A DNA stretch of 45,110 nucleotides from Hylemonella gracilis ATCC 19624. Its GTDB lineage: Bacteria; Pseudomonadota; Gammaproteobacteria; Burkholderiales; Burkholderiaceae_C. Shown piece by piece: positions 26,170 through 39,427 of the stretch. The stretch is taken from assembly GCF_000211835.1 (NCBI RefSeq), contig NZ_AEGR01000043.1:1-45110 (forward strand). Reading direction: 5' to 3'. Position 1 is the first letter of the stretch. Each line of letters starts with the position of its first letter. Under the pieces are notes generated by a model. That model was not told the origin of the DNA, did no database searches, and worked only from the letters and a program-made list of their open reading frames with translations. The translations under genes were made by a program, and so were the position numbers.

Positions 26170-29100
26170 ATGGTGCAGCTCTCCAGACGCCAGTTCATGA
26201 AAGTGACTGGCACCACGCTGGCGGGTTCGAGCCTGGCGCTGATGGGCTTTTCGCCCGCCACCGCCTTGGCCGACGTCCGACAGTACAAACTCTCCGCCGC
26301 CACCGTCACCCGCCAGACCTGCACGTATTGCTCGGTCGGTTGCGGCATCCTGATGTACTCGCACGGTGATGGCGCGAAGAACGTGCGCTCCACGGTGTTC
26401 CACGTCGAGGGCGACCCCGACCATCCGGTGAACCGCGGCACGCTGTGCCCCAAGGGCGCGGGCCTGCTGGACATCATCAACAGTCCCAACCGCCTGATGT
26501 ACCCCGAGTACCGCGCGCCCGGCTCCAACGAGTGGAAGCGCATGTCCTGGGACGAGGCACTGGACCGCATCGCGAAGCTTCTCAAGGCCGACCGCGACGC
26601 CAACTTCGTTGAAAAGACGGCGGACGGCCTGACGGTCAACCGCTGGCTCACCACCGGCATGCTGGCGGCTTCCGCCTCCAGCAACGAAGCTGGTTACATC
26701 ACCCACAAGGTCGCCCGTTCCTGGGGCCTGCTCGCATTCGACAACCAAGCCCGTGTCTGACACGGCCCGACGGTGGCAGGTCTTGCCCCGACGTTTGGCC
26801 GTGGAGCGATGACGAACCATTGGGTCGACATCAAGAACGCGGATGTGATTTTGATTATGGGCGGCAATGCCGCCGAGGCGCACCCCTGCGGATTCAAGTG
26901 GGTGACGGAAGCGAAGGCGCACAACAAGGCGCACTTCATGGTGGTGGACCCGCGCTTCAACCGCTCGGCGTCCGTGGCCGACTTCTACGCGCCGATCCGT
27001 TCCGGCAGTGACATCGCCTTCCTGGGCGGGATCATCAATTACCTGCTGACGAACGACAAGATCCACCATGAGTACGTGAAGGCCTACACGGACTTCACCT
27101 TCATCGTGCGCGAGGACTTCAAGTTCGACGAGGGCATCTTCTCCGGCTACAACCCCGAGAAGCGCACCTACGACAAGGGCAGCTGGGACTACGAGCTGGG
27201 AGCGGATGGGTTCGTCAAGACCGACCCCACGCTCAAGCATCCACGTTGCGTCTACCAGCTGATGAAGCAGCACTACGCGCGCTACACGCCCGAGATGGTC
27301 GAGCGCGTCTGCGGCACGCCTAGGACCAAGTTCCTGCACGTGGCCGAACAGTTCGCGTCGACGGCCGTGCCGGGCCGCGCGGCCACCATCATGTACGCGC
27401 TGGGCTGGACGCAGCACAGCACGGGCGCGCAGATGCTGCGCACCGGCGCCATGGTGCAGCTGCTGTGCGGCAACATCGGCGTGGCGGGCGGCGGCATGAA
27501 CGCGCTGCGCGGCCACAGCAACATCCAGGGCCTGACGGACCTGGGCCTGCTGTCGGGCAGCCTGCCGGGCTACCTCACCCTGCCGGGACAAGCCGAGCAA
27601 GACTACGCCAAGTACATCGAAGTGCGCGCGCAGAAGCCCCTGCGCGCCAACCAGATGAGCTACTGGCAGAACTACGGCAAGTTCCACGTCAGCCTGATGA
27701 AGGCCTGGTACGGCCCCGCCGCGACCAAGGAGAACAACTGGGCCTTCAACTACCTGCCCAAGCTCGACAAGCAGTACGACATGCTGCAGGTCTTCGAACT
27801 GATGCACCAGGGCAAGGTCAACGGCTACATCGCCCAGGGCTTCAACCCCATCGCCTCTCTGTCCAACAAGGACCGCGTGCGCGATGGGCTGTCCAAGCTC
27901 AAGTTCCTGGTCGTGATGGATCCGCTGGCGACGGAAACGGCTGAGTTCTGGAAGAACCACGGCGAATACAACGACGTGGACACCGCGCAGATCCAGACCG
28001 AGGTGTTCCGCCTACCGACCACCTGCTTCGCGGAGGAAGACGGCGCGGTCGTCAGTTCCTCGCGCGTGCTGCAATGGCACTGGAAGGCGGCCCAACCCCC
28101 GGGTGAGGCGCGCACGGACATCCACATCATGTCCTCGCTGCACCAGCGCATGAAGACGCTGTACGCCAAGGACGGCGGCAAGTTCCCGGACCCCATCCAG
28201 AACCTCTGGTGGCCGTACGCGAAGGCCGAGGAACCCTCGCCCGAGGAAGTGGCCAAGGAGTACAACGGTCGCGCCCTGGTCGATCTGATCGACCCCAAGG
28301 ACAAGGCCACCGTGCTGCGCAAGGCGGGCGAGCAGGTCTCCGGCTTTGGCGAGTTGCGTGACGACGGCACGACGATCAGCGGCTGCTGGATCTACGCCGG
28401 CGCCTGGACCACCGCGGGCAACCAGATGGCACGGCGCGACAACAGCGACCCCACCGGCATCGGCAACACGCTCAACTGGGCCTGGGCCTGGCCGGCCAAC
28501 CGCCGCGTGCTGTACAACCGCGCGTCCTGCGACCCCAGCGGCAAGCCCTTCAACCCCAAGCGCAAGCTGGTGGCCTGGAACCCGGCCGCCAACGGTGGCG
28601 CGGGCGGCTGGGGCGGCGCGGACGTGCCGGACTTCGGTGGCACGCTCGCGCCCGAGACCGGTGCCGGGCCCTTCATCATGAACCCCGAGGGCGTGGCCCG
28701 CTTCTTCGCGCGCAAGGGCTTGAACGAAGGTCCCTTCCCCGAGCACTACGAGCCCTTCGACACGCCGCTGGGCTACAACCCGCTGAACCCGAAGAACCCC
28801 AAGGCGACCAGCAACCCGGCCGCGCGCGTGTTCCCGGAAATCTGGAAGACCTTCGGCGAGGCCAAGGACTACCCGCACGTCGGCACCACCTACCGACTGA
28901 CCGAGCACTTCCACTACTGGACCAAGCACGCGGTGCTCAACGCCATCACCCAGCCCGAGCAGTTCGTCGAGATCGGCGAAGCCCTGGCCAAGGAGGTGGG
29001 CGTGAAGACCGGCGAGCGCATCCGGGTCTCGTCCAAACGCGGTCACATCGTGGCGGTGGCGCTCGTCACCAAGCGCATCAAGCCGATGCAGGTGGACGGC

Positions 29101-31917: not shown

Positions 31918-31990
31918 CCTGTGCGAGCACACCCCAACGTGATAGCCTGACGGACCGCCGCCCTCCACCGTCCACCTTCTTGCGCGAGTG

Positions 31991-33475
31991 ATGAGTTCAT
32001 CCTCCCCCGCCCCCATCGCCCCCACACCCAGCCTGTTGGCCAAGCTGCCCTCCGTCGACCGCGTGCTCGCCAGCCCGGCGCTGCGCGAATTGAGCACGCA
32101 GTACGGACTAGGCCAGGTCACGGACACGCTGCGCGCCGCGCTCGACGGCTTGCGCGCGCAAGCCCAGGCCGGCGCACTCACGGCCGAGCAACTGGACACG
32201 CAAGCCGCCACCGACGCCTTGGCTGGCACCGTCGCGCGGCGCCTGGAGGCGAAATTCGCCCCGCGCCTGCGCGCTGTCTTCAACCTCAGCGGCACGGTGC
32301 TGCACACCAATCTGGGCCGCGCCCTGCTGCCCGACGACGCGGTGCAGGCCGTGGTGCGCGCGCTGACCACGCCCGCCAACCTGGAATTCGACCTGGCGAC
32401 CGGCGGGCGCGGCGATCGCGATGACCTCGTCGATGAGCTGCTGCGCGAGCTGACCGGCGCCGAAGCCGCGACGGTGGTCAACAACAACGCCGCCGCCGTG
32501 CTGCTCACGCTCAGCGCCCTGGCCGCGAAGAAGGAAGTCATCGTCTCGCGCGGTGAGCTGGTGGAAATCGGTGGCGCCTTCCGCATTCCGGACATCATGA
32601 AGCGCGCGGGGGCGACACTGGTCGAGGTCGGGACCACCAACCGCACCCATGCCAAAGACTACGCCGAGGCCATCACGGTTCGCACTGCCTTGCTGATGAA
32701 GGTTCACACCAGCAATTACGCGGTGACTGGCTTCACCAAGAGCGTGCCTGAAAGCGAGGTCGCGCAGATCGCCCACGCGGCGAGCGCGGCGGACCCGCAA
32801 GGCCTGCCGCTGGTGGTGGACCTGGGCAGCGGCACCTTGGTGGACCTGTCGCGCTGGGGCCTGCCGCACGAACCCACGGTGCGCGAGACCATCGCCGCGG
32901 GCGCCGACCTCGTCACCTTCAGCGGCGACAAATTGCTGGGTGGCCCGCAGGCCGGCTTGATCGTGGGCCGCAAGGACCTGATCGCGAAGATCAAGAAGAA
33001 CCCACTCAAGCGCGCGCTGCGCGTCGGCAAGCTGACCCTGGCCGCGCTCGAGCCGGTGCTGCGCCTCTACCTCACGCCCGAGCGCCTGGCCGAGCGGCTG
33101 ACCACGCTGCGCCTCTTCACCCGCCCGCAGGCGCAGATGCATGCGCAGGCCGCGGCGCTTCGGCCCCTGCTGCAAACGGCACTCGGCAACGCGTACGCCG
33201 TGGAAAGCGTGCCTCTCTTCAGCCAGATCGGCAGCGGCGCCCTGCCCTCGGACACCTTGCCCAGCCATGGCCTGCGCATCCAGCCCGTGGACGCCAAGCG
33301 CGCGGGCCGTCAGATCAGCCGCCTCGAAACCGCGCTGCGCCAGCTACCGCGACCCGTCATCGGCCGCGTGGCCGACAACGCGCTCTGGCTTGACCTGCGT
33401 TGCCTGGAAACGAAGGACGAGGCGGACTTCACGGCGCAGTTGCCTTTGCTGGGCACGACGGTGATGAAGGCATGA
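31991..33475 (+). CDS. selA: L-seryl-tRNA(Sec) selenium transferase
   Basis: This PLP enzyme turns Ser-tRNA(Sec) into Sec-tRNA(Sec) with selenophosphate from SelD (not in the window). The 494-residue protein has the PLP lysine in [12 protein letters not shown] (Lys314), [16 protein letters not shown] near 98-113, and [14 protein letters not shown] 31988 immediately before the ATG is an alternative start. It follows fdhE after 73 nt and precedes selB after a structured 232-nt gap. Confidence 0.97.
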
Positions 33476-33707: not shown

Positions 33708-35768
33708 GTGATCATCGGTACCGCCGGTCACATCGACCACGGCAAGACCACGCTGGTGCGCGCGCTGACCGGCGTGGACACCGACCGCCTCAAGGAGGAG
33801 AAGGCGCGCGGCATCTCCATCGAGCTGGGGTATGCCTACACGCCCCTGCCGCAGACCACGGGCGAGGACGCCCGCGAAGTGCTGGGTTTCATCGACGTGC
33901 CGGGCCACGAGAAATTCGTCCACACCATGGCGGCGGGCGTGGCGGGCATCGACCACGCCTTGCTCGTGGTCGCGGCCGACGACGGCGTGATGCCGCAGAC
34001 CCGCGAGCACCTCGCCATCGCCCTGCTGCTGGGTGTGCGCGAGGGCAGCATCGCGCTGACCAAGACCGACCGCGTCGATGCCGCGCGCATCAGCGCCGTG
34101 CGCGCCGAGCTGCAAGCCCTGCTCGACGGTACGCCGCTGGCCGGCGCCGCGCTGTTTGAAACCACGGCCACGCGCGAGGGCGACCCCGGCGTGGCCGCGC
34201 TGCGCGACCATCTCTTCGCATGCGCGCGCGCGCATGCCATGCGGCCCGATGGCGGGCTGTTTCGCCTCGCGGTCGACCGGGTGTTCACCCTGGCGGGCCA
34301 GGGCACGGTGGTCACGGGCACGGTGTTCGGTGGCACGGCTCGCATCGGCGACAGCCTGCGCCATTCGGCCAGCGGCCAGGGGGTGCGCGTGCGCAGCATC
34401 CACGCCCAGAACCGCGCCAGCCCCAGCGGCCATGCCGGCCAGCGGGTCGCGCTGGCTCTCGCAGGCATCGAGAAAGATGCGATCCAACGAGGCGACTGGA
34501 TCGCCGACGCGCGCGCCTTGCAGGCCAGTCGGCGCATGGACGTGCGCCTGCAGCTGCTGCCCGGCGCGGAGATCCGCCCCTGGACGGCCGTGCACGTGCA
34601 CCTGGGCGCGGCCCATCACCTCGCGCATGCGGTGCCGCTGGAGGGCGACGTCGTGCGCCACGGGGACAGCACGCGGAACTCCGACACCGCAGACCGGACG
34701 TCCGATGTGCCCTCGGTGCAAGGAACACGCGTGCAGCTGGTTTTCGATACCGATGTCTACGCCACGTCCGGTGACCGCTACATCCTGCGCAATGCGCAGG
34801 CCAGCCGCACTCTCGGTGGGGGGCATGTGCTTGACCCTTACGCCCCCGAACGCAAGCGCCGCAGTCCCGCGCGCATGGCCTGGCTGGACGCTGTGCAGCA
34901 AACCCTGGCGGAAGGAACGGTGGGGCCGCTGCTTGCGCAAGCGCCACAGGGGCTCACGCGCGCCCACCTGGCCCTGCTGCTGGGGCGCCCGCCCGAATCA
35001 CTGCCGCTGCCGACCGACACGCTGGTGCTGCCGCAGGCCGAGGACGATGCCCTGCTCGTCCTCCCCGCGCACTGGCAGGTGCTGCGCACGCAGGTACTGG
35101 ACGCCCTGTCGCGGCTGCACACGCAGTCGCCCGACGAGCCCGGCGTGAATGCGGCGCGCCTGCGTCGCATGGCCTTGCCCACCCTGAGCGCGGCCACGCA
35201 GACCCACGGTGACGCGCTCTGGCAAGGATTGCTGGCGGCCCTGCTGGCGGAGGGCTCACTCGCCCAGAGCGGCGCCTGGCTGCATCTGCCCGCGCACCGC
35301 GTGGAGCTGAGCGCCAGCGAACAGTCCTTGGCCGAACGGCTGTTGCCCGCGTTGCGGGGCATGACGCCGGCCAAAGGGTACGACCCGCCCTGGGTGCGCG
35401 ACCTGGCGAAAGACTTCCACGTCGGAGAGGAAGTGGTGCGCCAGTTGCTGCGCAAGCTCGCACGCCAAGGCGCGCTGCACCAGGTGGTCAAAGACCTGTT
35501 CTACACCGCCGAACGCATGGACGAACTGGCCGCGCTGATCGCTCGCCTTGCCGCCGAGGCGGCCCCGGCACCCGCGGATGACGGCGGGCGTGCGATGCCC
35601 GCCATGCGCGGCGCCGTCGAAGCGGCGCACTTTCGCGACGCGACGGGCCTGGGCCGCAAGCGCGCCATCCAGGTGCTGGAGTACTTCGACCGCGTGGGCT
35701 ACACGCGCCGCGTGCGTGACGCGCACCTGCTGCGACCCGGCGTGAGCTGGCAAAGCGCTGCCGACTGA
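33708..35768 (+). CDS. selB: Selenocysteine-specific translation elongation factor SelB
   Basis: An EF-Tu-like GTPase that binds Sec-tRNA and the bSECIS hairpin and delivers Sec at UGA. The 686-residue protein starts with GTG at 33708, with GGGGAGGA 7 nt upstream, so the first residues are (M)[14 protein letters not shown] (G1). DVPGHEKF (G3) and TKTD (G4) follow, then beta-barrel domains and a C-terminal winged-helix array (about 440-686) that contacts the mRNA. A longer in-frame ATG at 33654 lacks this support. It is followed 48 nt later by selC. Confidence 0.96.
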
Positions 35769-35816: not shown

Positions 35817-35909
35817 GGAAGGCATACGCACCCGGTGGTGCGCCCGGGCTTCAAACCCGGTAGGGGGCGTCAGTCGCTTCCTGGTAGGTTCGACTCCTGC
35901 TGCTTTCCG
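35817..35909 (+). tRNA. selC: tRNA-Sec (anticodon UCA)
   Basis: A 93-nt tRNA with the 8-bp acceptor stem special to tRNA-Sec (GGAAGGCA/TGCTTTCC, one G-U), anticodon loop CTTCAAA with TCA at 35851-35853, a long variable arm and GGTTCGACTCCTG T arm. The discriminator is G35909. CCA is not encoded (CCC follows), unlike E. coli selC, so it must be added. It lies 48 nt after selB and may be cotranscribed; an inverted repeat TCACG/CGTGA (about 35792-35811) precedes it. Confidence 0.96.
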
Positions 35910-35917
35910 CCCCGCAC

Positions 35918-35946
35918 TTCAGCGCGCGCTACTGCGTTCCTATAAT
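35918..35946 (+). promoter_or_regulatory. Putative promoter downstream of selC
   Basis: A perfect -10 TATAAT (35941-35946) lies 17 nt after a weak -35 TTCAGC (35918-35923). Transcription would start near 35953, just before a 6-bp hairpin CCGTGG-TCAGT-CCACGG (about 35955-35971). It would drive the three-gene operon at 36149-39427 with a leader of about 195 nt. Confidence 0.6.
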
Positions 35947-35986
35947 GAATCGCCCCGTGGTCAGTCCACGGAGGACATCATCCGGT

Positions 35987-36012
35987 GTCGTCATTGCAGG
36001 TCTGCGTGCGGC
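35987..36012 (+). promoter_or_regulatory. SECIS-like hairpin in the leader of the post-selC operon
   Basis: GUCG-u-CAU-[U]-GC, loop AGGUCU, GC-GUG-CGGC: G35987-C36012 to G35990-C36009, bulged U35991, C35992-G36008, A35993-U36007, U35994-G36006, bulged U35995, G35996-C36005, C35997-G36004, loop 35998-36003. The 12 nt TTGCAGGTCTGC (35994-36005) equal the E. coli fdhF SECIS tip. The codon that would have to be UGA (35978-35980) is TCA, so it is not a Sec-insertion signal. A SelB-binding control element, as in the E. coli selAB leader, is the inferred role. GACATC (35974-35979) can pair with GGTGTC (35984-35989), excluding the lower stem. Confidence 0.72.
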
Positions 36013-36148
36013 ATGCGCATTGTTTGTCATCTTTCCCGGAATCCTTGAAAGTCCCGGGTGATGCTCAAGCAATCGGGCAGCAACACTTCCCTCAGGGGAC
36101 TCCTTCAACGACGGCGGTTTTTCCCGACGTCATTCGAAGGAGCACTTC

Positions 36149-37264
36149 ATGCCCTATCTCGCCACGCTCGAATCCATAGTCCAGGACAGCATCGCGCCCG
36201 CCGCGCTGGAGACCGATCAGCAGGCCCGCTTTCCGCGCGCGGCACTCGATGCACTGGGCCGAGCCGGCCTGCTGGGCCTGATCAGCGCCAAGGACGTGGG
36301 TGGCCTGGGGCTGGGCCAGCCCGAGGCCGCCAAGGTTGTCGAACGCATCGCGCAAGACTGTCCGTCCACCGCCATGATCGTCTGCATGCACTACGCGAGC
36401 ACGGCCCTGATCGAGAAATACGGCCCCGCCGAAACCCGCAAGGCGATCGCCGCAGGCAAGCACCTCAGCACCCTGGCCTGGTCTGAAACGGGGACCCGGA
36501 GCCATTTTTGGGCCCCGGTCGGCACGGCCAAGGCCGACGGCAAGGACTACCTGCTCGATGGCAGCAAGAGCATGGTCACCTCGGCGCTCGAAGCCGACTC
36601 CTACGTCTGGTCCTCGCAACCGGTCCAGGCCGAAGGACCGAGCACGATCTGGCTGGTGGACAGCCGCCTGCCGGGCCTGAGCCGCCCGCAGGCCTTCGAT
36701 GGCCTGGGCCTGCGTGGCAATGCCTCCGCGCCCATCCGCGCCAACGGCGTGCGCGTGCCCGCCAGTGCGATGCTGGGGCGGGACGGCGGCGGAGGCGACA
36801 TCATGAACGGCGACACCCTGCCACTGTTCACCCTGCTGGTGGCCTCCGCGTCCATCGGCCTGATGGAAGGCGCGCTGCAGCGCGCCACGGCGCACGTCAC
36901 GGGCAACCGCTTCGCCGAGAGCGGCACCACGCTAGCCGACCTGCCCACGGTGCGCGCCTACCTCGCCCGCGCCCGCATCCGGGCCGATCAGGCCCGCGCA
37001 CTGCGCGACGACACACTGGCCGCGTTGGCCAGTGGCCGTGCCGATGCCATGTTGCGCGTGCTCGAGGTCAAAGCCAGCGCGGCCGAGGCCGCGCTGGAAG
37101 TGACCGACCTGGCCATGCGCGTCGGCGGTGGCGCGGCTTTCCGCAAGGAAGCCGGCCTGGAACGCCTGTTCCGCGACGCCCGCGCGGCCTCCATCATGGC
37201 CCCCACGTCCGACGTGCTCTACGACTTCATCGGCCGCGCGCTCTGCGGCATGCCGCTGGCCTGA
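36149..37264 (+). CDS. Acyl-CoA dehydrogenase-like flavoprotein, post-selC operon gene 1
   Basis: A 371-residue acyl-CoA dehydrogenase-fold protein: N-terminal helical domain (ALDALGRAGLLGLISAKDVGGLG), middle beta domain (LAWSETGTRSHF, YLLDGSKSMVTSA), C-terminal helical bundle ending GLERLFRDARAASIMAPTSDV. In true dehydrogenases the equivalent of IMAPTSD is IYEGTSE with the catalytic Glu; here it is Ala. This points to an oxygenase or other flavin role, as in the DszC/SfnB branch. AAGGAG precedes the ATG. The gene leads an operon starting 240 nt after selC, with a SECIS-like leader. Substrate unknown. Confidence 0.85.
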   Translation: MPYLATLESIVQDSIAPAALETDQQARFPRAALDALGRAGLLGLISAKDVGGLGLGQPEAAKVVERIAQDCPSTAMIVCMHYASTALIEKYGPAETRKAIAAGKHLSTLAWSETGTRSHFWAPVGTAKADGKDYLLDGSKSMVTSALEADSYVWSSQPVQAEGPSTIWLVDSRLPGLSRPQAFDGLGLRGNASAPIRANGVRVPASAMLGRDGGGGDIMNGDTLPLFTLLVASASIGLMEGALQRATAHVTGNRFAESGTTLADLPTVRAYLARARIRADQARALRDDTLAALASGRADAMLRVLEVKASAAEAALEVTDLAMRVGGGAAFRKEAGLERLFRDARAASIMAPTSDVLYDFIGRALCGMPLA

Positions 37265-37368
37265 GATGCAACACTCCCCCGAGGCGCGACGCGCCTTCCC
37301 CCCTGTTCGTTTGCCCTCCGCTCGGGCAAGCCAGCGCATTTTCGTGTGAACACTCACCAGGAAACTTC

Positions 37369-38235
37369 ATGCCATCACCGCAACCTCCGATGCTCGGTGC
37401 CGTCGCCTACGCACCCAAGGTCGTCACGATCTGGGAGGGCTTCAAGGCCTATTTCGCCGAACGCGGCTACGCCTTCGACTACATCCTCTATTCCAATTAC
37501 GAAACGCAGGTCGAGGCCCAGTTCAAGGGCGACATCGCCTTCGCCTGGAATTCACCACTGGCCTGGGTGCGCGCCGACCGCATGGCCCGCGCGCGCGGCC
37601 AGCAAGTGCGGGCCCTGGCCATGCGCGACAGCGACATCGATCTGCATTCCGTGCTGGTCGTGCGTAGCGACAGCCCCGCGCAAAACCCGGCGGACCTGAG
37701 CGGCAGAACGATCGGCTTCGGCGCGGTGGATTCGCCGCAGGCGACACTGATTCCGCTCGACCATCTTCGCCACCAAGCGGGCATGGTGGCCGGGCGCGAC
37801 TACAACGCGCGCCGCTTCGACGTGCTGGGCGGCAAGCACGGCGACCACATCGGGGGTGAACGCGACGCGGCGGTGGCCCTGATGAAAGGCGACATCGACG
37901 CGGCCTGGATGATCGCGGGCAATCACCGCGCCTTTGCCCACGAGGGCACGCTGCCCGCCAGCGGCACGCGCATCCTCGCCACCACGGCGGCCTTCGACCA
38001 CTGCAACATGACGGTCAGCCCGGGCGTGGACGCGGGGATCGCCCAGCGCTTTGGCGACATCTTGCTGGGCATGGACTGGAACGACGCGCGGACACGCCCC
38101 TTGCTGGAACTCGAGGGCCTGAAATCCTGGCAGCCGGGCCGCACCAGCGGCTACGCGCTGCTCGAACGCGCCGTGAGCGAGGAAGGCTTCTATGACGGAC
38201 AAGGCCACATCACCGCCACCGACTATCGATATTGA
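37369..38235 (+). CDS. PhnD/NMT1-like binding-fold protein without signal peptide, post-selC operon gene 2
   Basis: A 288-residue protein resembling PhnD/SsuA-type substrate-binding proteins: AVAYAPKVVTIWEGFKAYF, FAWNSPLAWV, LVVRSDSPAQNPADLSGRTI and GERDAAVALMKGDIDAAWM. It begins directly with the fold and has no signal peptide or lipobox, and no permease or ATPase is adjacent, so it is probably cytoplasmic. Cytosolic members of this fold include the thiamine-pyrimidine enzymes of the THI5/NMT1 group. AGGAA precedes the ATG. Its last 44 nt overlap gene 3. Function unknown. Confidence 0.82.
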   Translation: MPSPQPPMLGAVAYAPKVVTIWEGFKAYFAERGYAFDYILYSNYETQVEAQFKGDIAFAWNSPLAWVRADRMARARGQQVRALAMRDSDIDLHSVLVVRSDSPAQNPADLSGRTIGFGAVDSPQATLIPLDHLRHQAGMVAGRDYNARRFDVLGGKHGDHIGGERDAAVALMKGDIDAAWMIAGNHRAFAHEGTLPASGTRILATTAAFDHCNMTVSPGVDAGIAQRFGDILLGMDWNDARTRPLLELEGLKSWQPGRTSGYALLERAVSEEGFYDGQGHITATDYRY

Positions 38236-39427
38236 AGCCCTGGGCTTCGACGCGGGTGCTCACCTGCTGGTCAAGCACGCCCTCGCCACCTTGCCCCTGG
38301 GCGAGGTGCTGCGTGTGACAGGTCATGCCCCAGCTTGGCAGGTGCAATTGGCGGACTGGTGCCGTGGCCAAGGCCACGGCCTGCACTGGGACGACGACAC
38401 GCAGCCGCTGGACATGCGCCGTTGGGCCCAGCTGCGCCGCGGCCACGCGCAGGCGGGCCGTTGGCGCGGCGCCTCCGCCACCGGTGCCAGCGACCCACGC
38501 CATCCGGACGCGGTACGGGCCGAGGCCAGTCCGGCCTGGGGTCTGGCGGCGCGAGGAGCACGTGTCGAGGCGGGATCGCCGGAGTTCGAATTTCGCCTGC
38601 GCGACAAGCAGGAACTGTGGACTGACAGCGCGGCCGAGCTCTACGCTCAGGCGGTGAATGCACAGTGGAACCCCGACACGGTCATCGATTGGGACGATGC
38701 ACCTGAACCCCCACCGGAGATCGAGGACGCCATCGTCCAGGTCATGACCTACATGATCGAGAATGAAAACGCGGCGCTGCTGGTGCCCGCGCGTTTTCTG
38801 GGTCAACTGCACCCGCACTACCGCGAGTTGCAGGCCGCGCTGGCGATCCAGGTCGCCGACGAGGCACGGCACATCGATGTGTTCACGCGCCGCATCCGTC
38901 GCCATGGCCGCGAGCCCGCGCTGTCCACCGCCGGTGGCCAAGCCTCGCTCAAGAGTCTGCTGGACGAGCCCGACTTCTCCGTGGCCTCCTTCCTGCTTTC
39001 TGTGCTGGGCGAAGGCAGCTTCGTCAACCTGCTGCAGTTCCTGCAGACCGAAGCGCCCGATCCGCTGACACGTCAGATCTGCCGCCTGGCCGCGCGCGAC
39101 GAGGCGCGCCATGTCGCGCTGGGCATGTCACACCTGCTCTACCGCCTCGCGCGGGAGCCCGGTTTCCAGCACCGACTGGCACAGTCCGTGGCGCAGCGCC
39201 ACGACGCGCTGGCCGGCACCGCGGGCCTGAACGAGGAGGTCTTCGACGCGCTCATCCTGGTCGCGGCCGGTGAACTCACGCCCACGGCAATCGCACGGGG
39301 TTACGCCCGCGTGCAACAGCTGATGCGCGACATGGCGGATGGCCGCTACGCCAAGCTGGTTCGGCTGGGTTTCGCGCGGGACCAGGCCGAGCACCTGGCG
39401 GCGCTGCACACCCGCAATTTCATGTGA
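38192..39427 (+). CDS. TusA-like / diiron ferritin-like fusion protein, post-selC operon gene 3
   Basis: A 411-residue two-domain protein. Residues 10-70 (IDIEALGFDAGAHLLVKHAL... GHGLHW) look like a TusA/SirA/YedF fold, but the catalytic CPxP is replaced by DAGA; Cys57 is the nearest cysteine. Residues 145-330 form a ferritin-like four-helix bundle with diiron ligands Glu190 or 192, Glu224-x2-His227, Glu274 and Glu304-x2-His307 (two DEARH motifs), as in AurF-type or rubrerythrin-like oxygenases. AGGAAGG precedes the start inside gene 2, so translation is coupled. The combination suggests an oxidation reaction on a sulfur- or selenium-linked substrate, which is inference. Confidence 0.8.
   Translation: MTDKATSPPPTIDIEALGFDAGAHLLVKHALATLPLGEVLRVTGHAPAWQVQLADWCRGQGHGLHWDDDTQPLDMRRWAQLRRGHAQAGRWRGASATGASDPRHPDAVRAEASPAWGLAARGARVEAGSPEFEFRLRDKQELWTDSAAELYAQAVNAQWNPDTVIDWDDAPEPPPEIEDAIVQVMTYMIENENAALLVPARFLGQLHPHYRELQAALAIQVADEARHIDVFTRRIRRHGREPALSTAGGQASLKSLLDEPDFSVASFLLSVLGEGSFVNLLQFLQTEAPDPLTRQICRLAARDEARHVALGMSHLLYRLAREPGFQHRLAQSVAQRHDALAGTAGLNEEVFDALILVAAGELTPTAIARGYARVQQLMRDMADGRYAKLVRLGFARDQAEHLAALHTRNFM

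Follow-up and report, generated by a model that had tools for sequence, protein, structure and literature searches.

A SECIS-like hairpin without UGA as a candidate SelB-responsive leader of a three-gene module linked to selenium genes

Introduction

To our knowledge, a selenocysteine insertion sequence (SECIS) serving as a regulator without a UGA codon is known only from the selAB operon of Escherichia coli, where it looks like a local feedback. The SECIS-like element in the selAB leader was reportedly described by Thanbichler and Bock in 2002, and SelB carrying selenocysteinyl-tRNA (Sec-tRNA) is said to repress the operon through it. In an excerpt of PMC8124441, the work on the E. coli selAB leader is cited for 'SelB autoregulation'. 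Here we describe a SECIS-like hairpin in the leader of three consecutive genes, g1, g2 and g3 (the trio), in a 45,110-nucleotide (nt) stretch of Hylemonella gracilis ATCC 19624 (contig NZ_AEGR01000043.1, forward strand), called the window below. The sequence makes the hairpin a strong candidate regulatory SECIS, of the same type as that of selAB but placed in a new setting. We consider it probable that it is a non-decoding element bound by SelB-GTP-Sec-tRNASec (GTP, guanosine triphosphate; tRNASec, selenocysteine tRNA) and that it controls g1-g2-g3 as a selenium module.

The likeness to the E. coli selAB leader lies in the non-coding SECIS plan within a 5' leader, the missing UGA, the link to Sec synthesis and the presumed ligand, SelB with Sec-tRNA. 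Unlike selAB, the trio stands outside the known Sec machinery, and the hairpin is kept across several families of Beta- and Gammaproteobacteria. The decoding SECIS of formate dehydrogenase (Rfam RF01989) shares the bulged U, the GGUC loop and the flanking pairs, and the Ramlibacter leader also has its upper-stem length and loop; the trio leader, in contrast, has no UGA, lies in no coding frame and, in the window, matches no Rfam model. Most trio leaders have an upper stem as short as in the E. coli SECIS, whereas the local formate dehydrogenase SECIS has one of four pairs. As for the proteins, the Rv1679/Rv1680 pair (NF049984, NF049985) gives the best NCBIfam matches to g1 and g2, but below the curated cut-offs. 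The closest parallel to g3 is YedF (SirA/TusA-like plus DsrE-like, TIGR03527), likewise a TusA-like domain fused to a second one, and tied to selenium according to an excerpt of PMC5322559; g3 differs in lacking CPxP and in having a di-metal oxidase in place of DsrE.

The hairpin and its surroundings

The hairpin occupies positions 35987–36012 of the plus strand, between selC and the trio, and forms nine pairs over 26 nt. Read from 5' to 3', it consists of GUCG, an unpaired U (35991), CAU, a further unpaired U (35995), GC, the hexaloop AGGUCU with its GGUC at 35999–36002, and the returning arm GC, GUG, CGGC, so that both unpaired U stand on the 5' side. A preliminary description of this locus, drawn from its letters, had proposed just such a nine-pair hairpin with two bulged U and an AGGUCU loop, together with a 12-nt match to the E. 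coli SECIS tip. Both are borne out, and the match is exact, TTGCAGGTCTGC (35994–36005) being identical in the functional SECIS 5'-ggttgcaggtctgcacc-3' used in E. coli according to an excerpt of PMC3834832. In the 3.6-Mb genome the 12-mer has a single exact occurrence, and with at most one mismatch there are 46 matches versus 16 for a reversed control pattern.

The tip is the same as that of the formate dehydrogenase and E. coli SECIS, as would be expected of a decoding SECIS from a short Sec-containing leader peptide or a decayed selenoprotein gene. This origin is contradicted by the defining UGA, which was tested and is absent: as the preliminary description had noted for the window, no UGA stands at the position needed, and none of 32 leader rows (26 and 6 further) has one between −18 and −14 relative to the bulged U. 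A decoding SECIS is therefore excluded, and we assign this alternative next to no probability.

Upstream of the trio the window holds, all on the plus strand, a formate dehydrogenase with its own decoding SECIS (26755–26813; RF01989, 85.3 bits), which provides a native reference; selA (31988–33475; named from place and sequence, with homologues located by tblastn); selB (33708–35768), which encodes the proposed trans-acting factor; and selC (35817–35911; tRNA-Sec with UCA anticodon, found by ARAGORN and by RF01852 at 72.6 bits). The promoter-like TATAAT of the preliminary description is present at 35941–35946 (plus strand) as a candidate −10 box of the leader transcript, but a sigma-70 scan found no full promoter in the window leader. 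A lenient word scan, run with no chance control, places one of seven −10-like words, TATAAT among them, upstream of the tip in 19 of 23 leaders.

Conservation among trio leaders

Trio loci were collected with a g3 pattern scan of one genome per species (84,980 species), which yielded 41 loci. At first, a strict scan ahead of g1 picked up the tip in Delftia, Ideonella, one Lampropedia, and Paraburkholderia and allies. Reading of the leaders showed that Acidovorax and Xenophilus have the same tip, with imperfect lower stems, and that Ramlibacter has a variant of it; reading also located the tip elsewhere at the operon head in Pseudoxanthomonas, Luteimonas and a second Lampropedia. A relaxed scanner recovers the hairpin plan in 29 of 44 trio leaders versus 1.8 expected from dinucleotide shuffles, a ratio to be read with the scanner's tuning after the leaders had been seen and the non-independence of homologous leaders in mind. 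Elsewhere in these loci, the window excluded, the background is 0.036 matches per 350 nt; three of the 29 scoring leaders (L035, L041, L043) fall outside the hairpin clade.

Because the scanner had been fitted to leaders already seen, 15 further trio regions from the family of the window were then fetched and scanned unchanged; three, to judge by their length, are the contigs of loci L009, L013 and L020. The hairpin is present in six of the 12 new loci (L158, L159, L161, L162, L165, L172), five have the trio within a sel operon and no hairpin, and one (L169) has neither. Five of the six hairpin-bearing loci were placed in the tree, all of them in the hairpin clade; L172, with a partial g3, is unplaced, and its leader resembles that of Delftia. 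The six new loci without the hairpin fall outside this clade. The trio itself is rare, occurring in 7 of 399 sampled genomes of the order and 18 of 389 of the family (window included in both). Further searches near Luteimonas (2/21 genomes) and in Burkholderiaceae (3/200) gave no new trio, and a plasmid search gave no PLSDB match at E 1e-30.

The main hairpin clade comprises Comamonadaceae, Ideonella, Paraburkholderia and allies, Luteimonas and Pseudoxanthomonas. It contributes 31 leaders to the conservation count, which excludes L014 (strain of L013) and L084 (contig of L007). All 31 keep the bulged U, the GGUC loop and the two pairs under the bulge. The first of these pairs is U-A in 24 leaders, U-G in 4 and G-C in 3; the second is A-U in 9, G-U in 11, G-C in 8 and C-G in 3. 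The upper stem is GCA/UGC in 26, GCA/UGU with a G-U pair in 2, GACA/UGUC in 2 (Luteimonas) and CGCA/UGCG in 1 (Ramlibacter), and has thus been rebuilt by compensating changes in Luteimonas and Ramlibacter. The Ramlibacter form shares the plan that the formate dehydrogenase SECIS shows in most of these genomes (GGCA/UGCC), but its letters differ in a way that preserves pairing. When the 3' sides of 13 distinct variants are permuted over three pairs, 32 of 39 cells are paired in the real arrangement versus a mean of 24.0 (p 0.007). In a 21-leader alignment all seven invariant columns lie inside the tip. The bulged U stands roughly 90–210 nt upstream of the first start codon, some starts being approximate.

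The pattern of conservation also bears on whether the motif is a DNA operator for a transcription factor. TGCAG-GT-CTGCA is nearly an inverted repeat, and TGCAGGTCTGC occurs in 26 of 31 leaders, followed by A in most. What is conserved is, however, the reverse of what an operator would keep: the arms change by compensating pairs (GCA, GACA, CGCA), whereas the centre GGTC and the one-sided unpaired T are invariant. The putative site moreover lies downstream of the candidate −10 box, and we regard an operator as very improbable.

All SECIS leaders entered in the trees fall within one clade (support 100/99). As the trees show a single hairpin clade, its history is most simply explained by one gain with full retention rather than by many independent gains. 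Where the gene order is g2-g1-g3 (L015, L025, L027), the hairpin still stands at the head of the operon. Two distant trios from Actinobacteria (L044, L045; about 50% identity in g3) have no hairpin; their genomes have SelD and a partial SelB match barely over the cut-off.

Association with selenocysteine decoding

SelB is found above the cut-off in 31 of 40 trio genomes versus 103 of 399 sampled genomes of the order. Among trio genomes it is present in 26 of 27 with the hairpin versus 13 of 23 others (Fisher p 0.0012, kinship ignored). The 27 consist of 24 profile-searched genomes, in which L013 and L014 count as one strain, plus the window, its congener L047, and L158; for L047 and L158 the selB gene beside the trio was taken as evidence of SelB. 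Left out of the tally are L028 (SelB present, leader off the contig) and L159, L161, L162, L165 and L172. The sole exception is a Delftia metagenome assembly, which is probably incomplete, since the formate dehydrogenase SECIS is present and SelD is absent too. The preliminary description had named homologous operons lacking the hairpin, or lying mostly in genomes without selA/selB, as what would speak against it; across the main clade we found the reverse, with the hairpin in 31 of 31 leaders and SelB in 26 of the 27 genomes tallied.

The formate dehydrogenase SECIS was detected in 26 of 30 genomes searched, the four without it being SelB-less genomes with another conserved leader (leader B, below). 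Of 45 trio genomes, 44 have SelD above the cut-off (G091 and G112 seem to be a single assembly), versus 285 of 399 in the order. As the SelB-less trio genomes are included in this count, SelD is a sign of general selenium use. At the centre of L118, from the genome of L016, a weak RF01989 match (48 bits) has TGC at the place of UGA and a changed GGTC loop; it appears to mark a cysteine formate dehydrogenase whose SECIS has decayed, and this Lampropedia carries an intact SECIS as well.

Linkage of the trio to selenium genes

Among 58 locus rows, 16 have selA, selB or selC near the trio and 13 have selD there, which adjoins the trio in several genera; together these make 23 rows. Among the 58 L024 and L046 are one genome, L013 and L014 one strain, and many stretches are short. 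The identity of selD was confirmed by TIGR00476 for two loci. The order selA-selB-selC-hairpin-trio is found in the window, L047 and Ideonella, and selB-selC-hairpin-trio in Ramlibacter, while L158 has selA-selB-hairpin-trio-selC with selD further on. In the Xenophilus group (L013/L014, L162, L165) the order is hairpin-trio-selD, with 27–60 nt between. Three Luteimonas have sel genes 0.2–4.6 kb from the trio.

Five genomes (L166, L167, L168, L170, L171) carry selA-g1-g2-g3-selB-selC, with 11–21 nt between the g3 and selB matches. A hairpin needed only where the trio has its own promoter would fit its absence in these five. In Peristeroidobacter soli (L042:3938-4059) the tRNA-Sec ends 28 nt before the g1 match, and for this reason the trio there may be co-transcribed with selC. 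With sel-operon trios, adjacent selD and SelD in nearly every trio genome, the selenium link is stronger than the preliminary description knew.

Among the locus stretches, formate dehydrogenase genes lie only in those of the window and its congener (first set) and of L166, L168 and L171 (later set), and L035 has a formate dehydrogenase SECIS on the contig of the trio. Flanking frames were clustered coarsely (many shadow frames in GC-rich DNA); selA, selB, selD and fdhD are among the clusters. In three Ideonella, fdhD, encoding the formate dehydrogenase sulfurtransferase, directly follows g3 (L009:7218-8120, with equivalents in L010 and L011).

A second conserved leader

Eleven loci (L029–L032, L035, L036, L038–L041, L043) share another conserved leader, leader B, around GCGCTGCCAGNNNGCAGGTCAGCAG...GAGGTRCG; it is exemplified by L035:3793-3913, a conserved leader RNA candidate before the trio. 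Leader B has no match in Rfam, and in 7 of the 11 genomes the trio's own leader is its only match at up to one mismatch. SelB is present in four of these genomes and absent in seven. Leader B could provide SelB-independent control of the trio module and is possibly a selenium-related riboregulator of another kind.

Its existence raises the question of whether the hairpin, too, is an RNA element read by a factor other than SelB and related to leader B. By eye, GCAGGTC is seen in 8 of the 11 leader B sequences, and only 4 of the 11 genomes have SelB. On the other hand, the two Duganella loci are the only ones in which the scanner recognises the bulged-U plan at the core of leader B, leader B has its own conserved context and its loci lie outside the hairpin clade, and leaders of SECIS form occur in genomes showing signs of Sec decoding. 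We therefore think such a factor improbable.

Proposed regulation by the leader

In the mechanism that we favour, the amount of SelB-GTP-Sec-tRNASec would report the selenium supply, and the complex would bind the bulged U and GGUC loop of the presumably transcribed 5' leader and thereby alter the expression of g1-g2-g3. Repression at sufficient selenium seems most likely by analogy with E. coli selAB. An excerpt of PMC4513850 gives the affinity of SelB-GTP as picomolar for Sec-tRNASec and nanomolar for SECIS, so that a free leader SECIS would be occupied when charged Sec-tRNA is plentiful. The trio would represent a selenium-supply or selenium-handling module upstream of SelD. Where it forms a separate unit, as in the main clade, the SECIS leader would control it, while in another clade it lies inside the sel operon and would presumably be co-transcribed with selA and selB. 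The same device has apparently been kept across several families ahead of genes that do not belong to the known Sec pathway, so that here a translation factor would serve as a nutrient sensor.

SelB binding might instead activate the trio. A terminator-like hairpin of uncertain role (36003–36019, plus strand), followed by TTGTTTGT, uses the 3' arm of the SECIS-like hairpin and excludes its fold; if SelB prevented it from forming, the trio would be expressed when selenium is available. Four overlapping terminator-like matches coincide at this one site in the window versus 0.4 expected in shuffles, and the congener (G003) has the same sequence. The U-rich tail is, however, absent by eye from the Paraburkholderia, Ideonella and Delftia leaders, and for that reason a terminator switch is not the general mechanism; activation of this kind seems to us unlikely. 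The region 5–14 nt before the start is predicted to be paired in 23 leaders (mean 0.41 to 0.97, some starts being approximate), and this pairing and the competing terminator-like hairpin make the assignment of repression tentative. A switch in which the tip would pair with sequence further down the leader, an idea prompted by CAGACC in Paraburkholderia, was rejected, the duplex energies having p over 0.05 against shuffles in 23 of 24 leaders.

A number of observations weigh against control by SelB through this hairpin. The third lower pair is held in only 19 of 31 leaders and the four outer pairs in 19 to 24, failing in several genera. The preliminary description had suggested covariation as a check, and the outcome is divided: the upper stems compensate and the three-pair permutation is significant, but a rigid nine-pair count over 13 leaders (alignment A5) is no better than shuffles, and a permutation over two pairs only, with 5 variants, gives p 0.095. 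With hardly any variation in the tip, covariation statistics in the strict sense are weak, and since the nine-pair count failed, we base the claim of conservation on the tip, on the two pairs beneath it and on the upper stems that were rebuilt. Homologous leaders are also non-independent, and the tree points to a single gain. Rfam SECIS models, searched with the window leader, gave no match at E up to 1. When the window leader is folded in isolation, its minimum-energy structure does not contain the hairpin (tip-pair probability 0.25), and across isolated leaders the predicted tip-pair probabilities range from 0 to 0.96. Left to itself the RNA often favours another fold, so either the hairpin may need to be captured by SelB, or the folding of the flanking sequence may be wrongly predicted.

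To these may be added the selA genes, before which no SECIS-like hairpin was found in the window, L009–L011, L025, L027, L042, L158, L160 (a contig of L009), L167, L168, L170 or L171, with 84 nt searchable in L025 and 7 nt in L027; the same search gave one weak candidate within the start of the coding region in L166. Finally, other trio clades are without the hairpin, some of them with SelB (Duganella, Rugamonas, G216). As trios outside the clade lack the hairpin and part of them are in SelB-less genomes, control by SelB would belong to one clade and not to the whole gene family. Within these bounds the preliminary reading, that SelB with Sec-tRNA controls this operon, is supported at the level that sequence can give.

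The trio proteins

The open reading frame of g1 (36149–37264, plus strand) encodes a flavoprotein of acyl-CoA-dehydrogenase fold and Rv1679-like type. It matches the acyl-CoA dehydrogenase family, and its best NCBIfam match is NF049984 at 354 bits (curated cut-off 600). The glutamate of the YEGT motif, which we take to be the catalytic residue of acyl-CoA dehydrogenases, is replaced by Ala, Gly or Ser in 17 of 17 sequences and is never Glu, so the flavin chemistry of g1 is likely to be different.

The product of g2 (37369–38235, plus strand) is of Rv1680-like type, with NF049985 as the best NCBIfam match at 213 bits (curated cut-off 400) and the putative selenate-binding family TIGR04553 as the second best at 57.5 bits (cut-off 250). 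Its predicted model (mean predicted local distance difference test, pLDDT, 91) has the phosphite/phosphonate-binding fold of PtxB and PhnD, shared by the arsenate/arsenite binders ArrX and AioX. No signal peptide was seen by eye, and there is no transporter among the identified recurrent neighbours of the trio, few of these coarsely clustered flanking genes being named.

In g3 (38192–39427, plus strand) profiles and the predicted model (pLDDT 76) point to a TusA-like N-terminus and a C-terminal di-metal oxidase (AurF/R2lox/VlmB-like). For the N-terminus, 20 of 22 members give a weak PF01206 match at E up to 1, the best being 2.9e-5; the seven scores listed lie below the gathering score. This part is modelled as beta-alpha-beta-alpha-beta-beta. 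The CPxP motif, named for SirA-like domains in an excerpt of PMC5322559, is absent, with D-x-G instead in 22 of 22 rows. The C-terminus matches PF11583 in 22 of 22 at E up to 1 and has ferritin-like helices with two ExxH pairs, E224/H227 and E304/H307, invariant in the 22 rows. Foldseek relates it to R2lox, VlmB and ADO (aldehyde-deformylating oxygenase) at modest scores (best E 6e-4), and no NCBIfam match of g3 is better than E 0.015.

The most economical guess for the function of the trio would be a step that uses oxygen and releases selenium or carries it towards SelD. Because it lies inside a sel operon or beside selD, in genomes that nearly always have SelD, and has a plausible sulfur/selenium chemistry, the trio is a new candidate for the poorly known step bringing selenium to SelD in aerobic bacteria. 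We put forward a wider reading more tentatively, as plausible but short of probable. SelB-GTP-Sec-tRNASec would riboregulate, as a target outside the Sec machinery, an undescribed selenium-assimilation module feeding SelD, through a SECIS without UGA or through residence in the sel operon in Sec-decoding lineages, and a second selenium-sensing leader RNA would take this role in lineages with SelD but without SelB. This reading gained in probability because selD itself was found beside the trio; under it, g2 may hold selenite or selenophosphate, with g3 and the flavoprotein g1 as other parts.

Neither a prior description of the trio nor a report of a comparable SECIS leader was found among the open-licence papers searched. 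The terms 'acyl-CoA dehydrogenase' and 'ferritin' are absent from the main texts of PMC5322559, PMC9312934 and PMC2432076, and 'phosphonate' from those of the last two. In Lampropedia aestuarii (L020:4600-5200) the g1 behind the hairpin is broken, as judged by eye, and a second g1-like gene follows g3.

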